NCBI GenBank assembly: GCA_017468935.1
Contig: JAFUHJ010000017.1
Location: 1-54,579 of the forward strand
DNA from: Candidatus Methanomethylophilaceae archaeon
Lineage (GTDB): Archaea; Thermoplasmatota; Thermoplasmata; Methanomassiliicoccales; Methanomethylophilaceae
Reading direction: 5' to 3'
DNA length: 54,579 bases
Shown one piece after another: positions 49,705-51,544 of the stretch (its first letter is position 1; each line of letters begins with the position of its first letter). The position numbers and the translations under genes were made by a program. Below the pieces are notes generated by a model that ran no database searches, was not told the DNA's origin, and saw nothing but the letters and a program-made list of their open reading frames with translations.

Positions 49705-49900
49705 TTCTATAATCCGATTCTGCTTGATTATTCGAAGATTCAGTGTATCCATAACTATTCAGGCATTCATCCAACTGTTATGGGAAATATGATATCAGTC
49801 ATATTAGCAGGTTCAAATAGCCAGACATCGAAAATGTCTAGATGATCTGTTTAAAAAACTGACCGAAATCCTTATTAATGGATGTAACTAACCAAAGTTA

Positions 49901-49908
49901 TTTATATT
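49901..49908 (+). promoter_or_regulatory. TATA box of the putative structured RNA
   Basis: TTTATATT preceded by AACCAAAGTTA (BRE-like). It lies about 25 nt before GGGTGCC at 49925, the proposed RNA 5' end. The region 49705-49900 otherwise holds no ORF; it is AT-rich. Confidence 0.55.
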
Positions 49909-50226
49909 CACCAAGGACAATTATGGGTGCCTAATATCTCACATACTCTACGTATCGTGTAATGGTGCGTCTGCGCCAGTAGGTCCATGTATCGTCCGTA
50001 AGGTCGGGTAGGTAACGATGGGGTTTCCGCAGTCCCGTATGGGGTGAGGTGCCTCGGCTGTCCGCGTCGTACGCGGGGTAGGTTAAAGTTCCGCATGGTG
50101 GGATCCCAGCACATGATGGTGCGTTGCCCGTATGGGTAGAGGTCGGGTCAGAGTCCCGGTGGTGGTCCGTAGTCGTAGCTCCCGGTGGATCGGGTCGCAT
50201 AGCGGTCCGGTGTAGCGTGTCGGCGT

Positions 50227-50273
50227 CAGCACATTACGTGCGCCTGCTTCGGTAGGTGTGCGGGGATAGTCCC
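50227..50273 (+). repeat. RNA module repeat, unit 3 core
   Basis: 26 nt at 50227-50252 (CAGCACATTACGTGC and onward) are identical to 50448-50473. The 47-nt unit folds as three hairpins: GCAC/GTGC, CCTGC-TTCG-GTAGG and GGG...CCC. AGTCCC begins at the same offset (41 nt) in both copies. Confidence 0.7.
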
Positions 50274-50447
50274 GTAGTCGTTCACGTTTCCATTCGCACT
50301 GATGCAGTATAGCATCAGGGCGGCGACGTAGTATAGGTTGGGCGCAAGAGCGTTCGCCTATGGTGTGATACATCAGTCCCCCTCGGGGATTGGTGGCCAA
50401 TAGGGAGTTCGGGTCGTCGTATGATGATCCGCAGCGATCGTCGTTTC

Positions 50448-50494
50448 CAGCACATTACGTGCGCCTGCTTCGGCAGGGGTGTGGGCATAGTCCC
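50448..50494 (+). repeat. RNA module repeat, unit 5 core
   Basis: Second near-identical copy. The tetraloop stem reads CCTGC-TTCG-GCAGG, so a G-U pair of unit 3 becomes G-C, which keeps the helix and supports an RNA-level role. Confidence 0.7.
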
Positions 50495-50610
50495 CTCTGG
50501 TGACGTTGATCAACATTAGCTCTTCCTCCCACCAGGGGAGGGAGGGCACCACCTCTTATCCAATCTATTGTTCGAGATGCAGATCCGTTCTTATAGATCT
50601 GTAAAATGAT

Positions 50611-50632: not shown

Positions 50633-51544
50633 TCAAATGCGTTTCAGATATCTGAGGTTGGGCTCGTAGACAAGCCCTTTGTCCATCAGTGTGTTGGAGA
50701 CCTCTTCGAGCTCGATGCTGCTTATTCCTTCTGCTTCGGCCCTCCTCTCGAGTTCTTCCCTGGGAGCACCCTTTCCGTCGGTGTCCAGCTCCTCGAGCAG
50801 GCTGAGGATCATATCCTCGAGCTGCGCGGCATTGTTGCCGGTGCCGCCGTTCTGTCCCTCGGGGATCTCGATCTCGTCAGGCTCATCAGAGTAGTCCTCG
50901 GGGAATCCGAGATCGACGTTCCTCTCCGGCAGGAGCATCCTGAGTGCGGCCTGGATGGTCTTCAGGTACAGTGTGGAATCGGGCATCTGACCGTAGTTGT
51001 CCAATGCGTATGTGATGCCGAAGGCCTCCGTGGGTGACATCCCTGCTTTGATGAGATCCTGCTCTGTGGCATCCCCCATCCCGAGCACCTTCTTGGTGGC
51101 GGTCAGTCTCTTCCATGTAGATTTGGCGGTCTCCAGGATCCATTCGTTGCGGACGGTCTCGGTGATCGGGACGATGTGCTCGGGCCTGACGGACACGAAC
51201 ACCCTCTGGTCGTCTGTGGTGTAGGTCCTTACCCTTCCCACCGCAGCCACGAAGCTGGGGATCTCGATATCCGCTATCGCGGCTGAAGCCTCGGGCTGGA
51301 ACCTTCCGACGTTGATGTAGAAGCTTCCGGAGACATCCTGTATCCTCGCCTTCCACATTGGTTCCTCGTCGCTCCCGATGTTCTCCTTCTCGGTCATGAC
51401 ACCGGCGACCAGGACCCTGTTGATCTTCGCTCCGAGGGGCGTGACGATGTAGGAAGGGGCCTTCTCTTCTGTCGCCTTTATCTCCAGCGTGGAAGAGTTC
51501 AGCTCTGTGGCGAAGACCCTCCATGCGGTCTCCCTTGCGTTCAT
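50633..51544 (-). CDS. RPA-associated OB-fold protein (COG3390-like)
   Basis: 303 aa. The N-terminal OB-fold region (REDIETAWRVFA-like RETAWRVFATELN, RVLVAGVMTEKENIGSDEEPMWKARIQDVSG) is followed by a linker and a C-terminal winged-helix-like segment (EDMILSLLEELDTDGKGAPREELERRAEAEGI). This matches the archaeal RPA-associated protein family encoded with RPA, which partners RPA in single-strand-DNA handling. It overlaps rpa by 4 nt. Confidence 0.86.
   Translation of the reverse strand: MNARETAWRVFATELNSSTLEIKATEEKAPSYIVTPLGAKINRVLVAGVMTEKENIGSDEEPMWKARIQDVSGSFYINVGRFQPEASAAIADIEIPSFVAAVGRVRTYTTDDQRVFVSVRPEHIVPITETVRNEWILETAKSTWKRLTATKKVLGMGDATEQDLIKAGMSPTEAFGITYALDNYGQMPDSTLYLKTIQAALRMLLPERNVDLGFPEDYSDEPDEIEIPEGQNGGTGNNAAQLEDMILSLLEELDTDGKGAPREELERRAEAEGISSIELEEVSNTLMDKGLVYEPNLRYLKRI

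Follow-up and report, generated by a model that had tools for sequence, protein, structure and literature searches.

A probable family of large structured RNAs with a conserved head, a variable tail and a methyltransferase/corrinoid-type promoter box in one genus of methylotrophic archaea

The window analysed here is the whole 54,579-nucleotide stretch of contig JAFUHJ010000017.1 from a Candidatus Methanomethylophilaceae archaeon (assembly GCA_017468935.1; genome G000). Near its right end lies a predicted RNA gene flanked on the left by rps2 (TIGR01012) and on the right by convergent genes, which encode a 303-aa protein and then a replication factor A-like single-strand DNA-binding protein (RPA). 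The gene for the 303-aa protein (window 50633-51544, minus strand) adjoins RPA, matches no NCBIfam model at E<=0.001 and is conserved, lying near rps2 in relatives too. A TATA box reported in the preliminary description of this DNA was found as TTTATAT at 49901-49907. The RNA and the elements upstream of it are as follows.

49768..49775, + strand: distal inverted half-site CATCCAAC, found at a matching position upstream of all five copies (four have it exactly, the fifth as CATCCATC)
49819..49828, + strand: AGCCAGACAT box, kept upstream of four of the five copies and also of a corrinoid-protein gene in G054
49879..49888, + strand: proximal box TGGATGTAAC (consensus TTGGATRTAW), adjoining the promoter and found in all five copies
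49894..49907, + strand: archaeal promoter, a BRE-like AAAG and the TATA box TTTATAT, its position kept in all copies
49925..50553, + strand: structured RNA of about 629 nt, with a predicted 5′ end about 20-25 nt after the TATA box and a predicted 3′ end; folding z -3.2 to -4.0 versus shuffles

On the + strand, positions 49924-50552 folded at -272.8 kcal/mol, compared with -247.7 +/- 6.3 kcal/mol for dinucleotide shuffles (z -4.0; a set of 30 shuffles gave z -3.2), and the antisense was much less stable (-194.6 kcal/mol). The preliminary description had proposed an undescribed structured RNA here, and the lack of an Rfam match, the stable + strand fold and the covarying relatives described below all bear this out. 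Rfam 15 gave no match to the region at the gathering threshold; at E<=10 it returned only noise, nothing beyond 12.8 bits, in agreement with the earlier failure to recognize RNase P, SRP, 5S, tRNA or a riboswitch. No credible protein is encoded, as had been stated; the longest + strand frames are interrupted and the indels between copies in the conserved part are not divisible by three.

A BLASTN search of 102 genomes of the taxonomic family identified one relative, G060, which carries the RNA at the same place as G000 (E 6e-23, 71% over 281 nt). When 147 genomes of the order were searched with a covariance model built from these two sequences (R1), three more copies emerged, a single one in G063 at E 5e-20 and a pair in G059 at E 5e-20 and 7e-13. 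The model built from all five copies (R2) recovered each of them at E<=7e-37 and found nothing credible beyond them in 31 genomes of the genus and 400 of the class. The family thus comprises five copies in four related species, with lengths, given the predicted ends, of about 522 (G059b), 629 (G000), 766 (G059a), 832 (G063) and 1174 nt (G060). As a check, the preliminary description had named conservation and covariation in relatives, and both were found. Also supported are its suggestion of a structured RNA confined to one taxon, copies having occurred in only one genus among the genomes searched, and the presence of a separate promoter. R2 matches with E 0.002-0.6 in G198, G438, G087, G058, G079 and G053 were short and low-scoring, and the four that were inspected had no such RNA or promoter.

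Conservation is concentrated in a head of about 240-280 nt. Its layout consists of hairpins H1 and H2, a long-range helix (CCAUGU/GCAUGG) that closes a multibranch domain (H3, H4 and H5), and then a tRNA-like cloverleaf.

49937..50168, + strand: conserved head (5′ domain and cloverleaf); R1/R2 E 1e-13 to 1e-94 in four genomes, with the covariation counts given below
49964..49977, + strand: hairpin H2, GGUGC-GUCU-GCGCC; relatives substitute AGCGA/UCGCU, GUGA/UCAC and GCCU/AGGC
49985..49990, + strand: 5′ strand of the long-range helix, CCAUGU, pairing with 50093-50098; a CG pair becomes UA in one two-sided change, and further changes are one-sided
50033..50044, + strand: hairpin H4, UCCC-GUAU-GGGG, holding the first AGTCCC; two-sided changes at four of five pairs
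50061..50077, + strand: hairpin H5, with two-sided changes
50093..50098, + strand: 3′ strand of the long-range helix, GCAUGG, pairing with 49985..49990

In alignment A4, 19 of the 53 pairs of the head model change on both sides, compared with a mean of 9.0 in shuffled alignments, none of which (0/500) reached the observed count; these figures come from five sequences, and the alignment leans toward the tested structure because it was fitted to a model from two of them. Pairing was retained in 95.3% of the A4 cells, versus 84.2% after shuffling and 31-49% in slid controls. H2 was plain in an ordinary MAFFT alignment as well; MAFFT alignments A2, A6 and A8, which contained mixed strands or misaligned members, were left out. 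The folding stability of this covariation-supported head was ordinary (z +0.7 to -1.8).

The 3′ part of the head is a 68-nt four-way cloverleaf, and two further segments of the G000 copy resemble it.

50101..50168, + strand: tRNA-like cloverleaf, 68 nt; covariation (A9) and R3 match of 75 bits
50101-50104/50165-50168 and 50106-50108/50160-50162, + strand: its enclosing stem
50109-50122, + strand: its D-like arm
50126-50137, + strand: its middle arm
50144-50158, + strand: its T-arm, with T-loop UCAGAGU
50214..50288, + strand: second cloverleaf-like segment (module core 50227-50276), with an R2 local match at E 0.017 and a predicted four-way fold
50446..50501, + strand: third cloverleaf-like segment, a duplicate of the second (47 nt, 91%), with a weak covariance score (E 0.4-0.6)

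By reading, the enclosing stem is GGAU-C-CCA/UGG-UG-GUCC in G000, GCAGC-G-CCAA/UUGG-UU-GUUGC in G060, GGC-A-CCAA/UUGG-GA-GCC in G059b, GAGCAG/CUGUUC in G063 and AGCGGUGU/ACGCCGUU in G059a. The third arm ends in a T-loop-type loop (UCAGAGU, UUCGAGU, UGAGAGU or UCAAAGU), except in G059a, which has none; the form UNNRAGU is therefore present in four of the five heads, and the G060 loop reads GGUUCGAGUCC. The cloverleaf resembles tRNA in having D-like, middle and T-arms, but it differs in its 4-nt middle-arm loop, in lacking an anticodon loop and an acceptor end, and in being embedded in a longer RNA. A module model (R3) was built from four sequences, namely three head cloverleaves and a segment of the G060 tail, and it scored these same building sequences at 75-80 bits in the three heads and 62.8 bits in the tail. 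The G000 repeats at 50227 and 50447 gave weak scores only. R3 matches in other members of the genus (E at least 0.04) were taken as noise.

These results change the architecture that had been proposed for the RNA, a series of five tandem units of about 115 nt marked by AGTCCC hairpins. The five AGTCCC elements are present (starts 50031, 50152, 50268, 50375 and 50489; spacing 121, 116, 107 and 114), and none of 2000 dinucleotide shuffles matched that number (mean 0.33) for a motif that was picked after being seen. The series is not conserved, however, as the four relatives hold 0, 2, 2 and 0 copies, and only three of the five units look structurally alike (at 50101, 50214 and 50446). R3 also counters the tandem arrangement: it matched strongly at a single site in each of three heads and at one additional site in G060. 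What is repeated in the G000 copy is the cloverleaf-like segment only, and the family is organized as a conserved head and a hypervariable tail. The duplicated 26-nt core noted earlier proved to be exact and to lie inside a 47-nt repeat of 91% identity (50227-50273/50448-50494). The helix-keeping base change was likewise confirmed (GUAGG to GCAGG opposite CCUGC, a G-U to G-C change). The complementary ends are present as well, GGTGCC at 49926-49931 and GGCACC at 50545-50550, but the closing helix they were thought to form is not robust and does not occur in relatives; the end-to-end pairing probability drops to about 0.06 when flanking bases are added.

50169..50553, + strand: variable tail; folding z -5.1 and no significant similarity to other copies

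Past about 260 nt, the five copies showed no significant sequence similarity to one another (best z 2.9, G000-G060), and tail lengths range from about 300 to 910 nt. All five copies nevertheless beat shuffles in whole-length stability, and the five tails alone gave z values of -5.1, -7.2, -5.9, -3.7 and -7.8. NYAU tetraloops closed by G-C pairs numbered 14 versus 1.2 expected, and in 400 shuffle sets no tetraloop class (defined by its last two bases) attained the observed 15; the NYAU class had been noticed before testing, and loops within one RNA may be shared by duplication. The RNA may, as had been suggested for the tandem units, scaffold several copies of one ligand, with which the recurrent NYAU tetraloops are compatible.

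Upstream of all five copies, (T)TGGATRTAW is followed by BRE/TATA, and in four of the five the distal half-site lies about 115-122 bp from the proximal site. A search of 10 genomes for TTGGATRTAW-N4-12-AAANNWWTWWATA returned four of the RNA genes and nothing else (control 0), G000 being one base off this pattern (ATGGATGTAA). When the box search was relaxed, corrinoid-protein gene promoters in G054 and G058 also matched. We then scanned nearly all of G059 (1.485 Mb) with crude frame calling. Its intergenic regions contain 15 copies of TTGGATGTAT, compared with 0.47 for permuted words, and 0/300 of the latter were as high. Besides the RNA genes, the sites adjoin MtmC-MtmB, HdrA2, CobA (ATP:corrinoid adenosyltransferase), CfbC/CfbA (F430), two transporter-type binding-protein loci, one small protein and a few others.

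C5:346706, C7:6915, C1:30728, C4:91599, C7:54248, C9:44932, C7:74484: examples of TTGGATGTAT/A sites in G059 (L305-L384)

A related TTGGATGTAA adjoins a corrinoid protein-MtaA/CmuA-type operon (the MtxC/MtaA locus) in G059, where TTGGATGTAACTATAATAAATTATAAATA is laid out like the G063 RNA promoter TTGGATGTAACATTAGAAAATTATTTATA. The AGCCAGACAT box as a motif and AGCCAGAC alone were not enriched in G059. TTGGATGTAT/A is often palindromic (TTGGATGTATNNTCCAA) and looks like the target of a DNA-binding regulator, as yet undescribed, that controls methyltransferase, corrinoid, F430 and heterodisulfide-reductase genes; the loci were assigned to methyl and corrinoid metabolism by judgement from family scans, and a short motif links them. 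The MtmB frame of G059 breaks off at position 195 of the 450-position profile, which fits an in-frame UAG codon for pyrrolysine. Along with the archaeal S2 and HdrA2, this accords with the Methanomassiliicoccales named in the preliminary description. A third G059 RNA, suspected from promoter boxes at C12:147.7 kb, proved instead to be a gene for a small protein with a tRNA-like sequence after it, and R2 was negative there. At C12:147975-148190, a protein of about 70 aa (MERIDLEKAKIIAKNKGLKPGNVKG...) is preceded by two TTGGATGTA boxes and AGCCAGAC, and it is perhaps another member of the RNA-box regulon.

Taken together, the covarying conserved head, the hypervariable but stable tail, the position outside operons and the methyltransferase/corrinoid-type promoter box show, at the level of sequence, the common character of the five copies, and we are highly confident that they form a real RNA gene family. 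They have the two-sided base-pair changes expected of a structured non-coding RNA gene, together with their own promoter (box and TATA) and no open frame under selection (out-of-frame indels). That the region is merely G+C-rich and decayed, or a protein gene misread as RNA, is scarcely credible: some long minus-strand frames exist, as expected of G+C-rich sequence, but the compensatory changes, the strand-specific stability, the conserved promoter and the out-of-frame indels all speak against it. All copies known so far belong to a single genus of methylotrophic (Methanomassiliicoccales-type) archaea. Searches of the open-access literature found no RNA of such kind described for this archaeal group.

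The surroundings of the copies bear on how the RNA might act. G000 and G060 carry it at one shared place, G063 elsewhere and G059 at two further sites, and the neighbouring gene differs from copy to copy. At four of the five copies the next gene downstream runs convergently; G060 is the exception, with a different gene on the same strand that begins an estimated ~70 nt past the RNA end. A riboswitch or other cis-acting leader would lie upstream of its regulated gene on the same strand, which only the G060 arrangement favours; the convergent genes at the other four copies and the different neighbour each time therefore exclude a leader role, to which we attach a very small probability. The same-strand gene of G060 (L063:8199-9386, minus strand), directly downstream of the RNA and between it and RPA, is glycosyltransferase-like by reading and has no NCBIfam match. 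A diverged housekeeping RNA (RNase P, SRP, tRNA/tmRNA, an rRNA fragment or a guide-RNA array) is only slightly less improbable than a leader. The T-loop cloverleaf and the G060 loop GGUUCGAGUCC do recall tRNA, but none of the five copies matched Rfam, its tRNA family included, ARAGORN called no tRNA or tmRNA in any of them, and sister species lack the RNA. The genuine archaeal RNase P RNA (RF00373), likewise a large structured RNA, sits elsewhere in both G000 (only match G000:C151:276-576, 200 bits) and G060.

A structural role has two main rivals. An accessory or selfish element, that is, an RNA gene moving with its promoter between genomic hot spots like other gap genes and possibly serving in defence or conflict, would account for the different loci in G059, G063 and G000/G060 and for the hypervariable tail. 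The ileS-thiF gap, which holds the RNA in G059, measures less than 100 bp in G063 and G054 and contains two small genes in G050, so that it seems to be an insertion hot spot; the rps2-RPA gap is filled by unrelated genes in other relatives. The RNA occurs in 4 of the 31 genus genomes and is absent from the close sisters G050, G054 and G058; this patchiness indicates that it is dispensable and is as compatible with an accessory or mobile element as with a housekeeping scaffold. Against mobility, we found no transposase, terminal repeats or target duplications, distant BLASTN of phages and plasmids gave no match, and exact-pattern scans of viral contigs, part of whose loci were also checked with R2, yielded nothing credible; moreover, the promoter is that of a host metabolic regulon. 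We regard such an element as unlikely, though a serious contender. A 17-base pattern had 49 matches in genome contigs, by our estimate no more than expected by chance, and BLASTN showed no homology. The two small genes in the G050 gap (L272) resemble, by reading, a nucleotidyltransferase and HEPN pair. Equally unlikely in our judgement is a regulatory RNA within the methyltransferase regulon, working either through base pairing or through sequestration of a regulator; the shared box would then place it in a feedback circuit, and exposed NYAU loops would be pairing or protein-titration sites. The shared promoter box, the recurrent loop motif and a tail that varies like fast-evolving target sites favour it, but the size and very high stability would be unusual in a pairing RNA.

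We tentatively prefer, at rather less than even confidence, a stand-alone non-coding RNA that would be co-expressed with the methylotrophy genes and would work in trans as a structural scaffold, either of RNA or of RNP. Its transcription would accompany the induction of the methyltransferase and corrinoid genes. Its head, with the T-loop cloverleaf and the multibranch domain, would be the constant recognition or assembly part, and its tail, variable in size, would consist of hairpins, many of them capped by an NYAU tetraloop, that offer repeated binding sites to a protein or to further molecules of the same RNA. The scaffold might serve the methylotrophic or corrinoid machinery, or an accompanying stress response. 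More speculatively, and with perhaps a modest chance of being right, the family could represent an archaeal class of large-RNA assemblies, with a cloverleaf head and an NYAU-loop tail, co-made with methyltransferase and corrinoid enzymes and organizing or protecting the pathway. This would, if true, tie a large ornate RNA to a methanogenesis regulon.

To our knowledge, archaea have yielded few large structured RNAs of unknown function. OLE, ROOL and GOLLD are large ornate RNAs of bacteria and phages that are stand-alone, patchy in distribution and elaborately and stably folded (Kretsch et al. 2025, PMC12286853). The present RNA is like them in its length of several hundred nucleotides or more, its stable fold, its poorly understood function and its stems, which are kept while sequence diverges. 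It is unlike them in being archaeal, in combining a conserved head with a hypervariable tail and in having a metabolic-regulon promoter; their Rfam models gave no covariance match in any of the five copies. A covarying head and a tail that keeps its stability without its sequence lie here under a promoter box of genes for H2-dependent methylotrophic methanogenesis, a process that bears on gut methane, and this raises a testable question: is an RNA scaffold built when the methanogen turns on its methyltransferases?

G059 also contains a second repeated intergenic element, AGCCAGAC...GGTACWTTATACCC, at C8:1545, C8:3029 and C5:162758; the two C8 sites are near ATPase-like genes.
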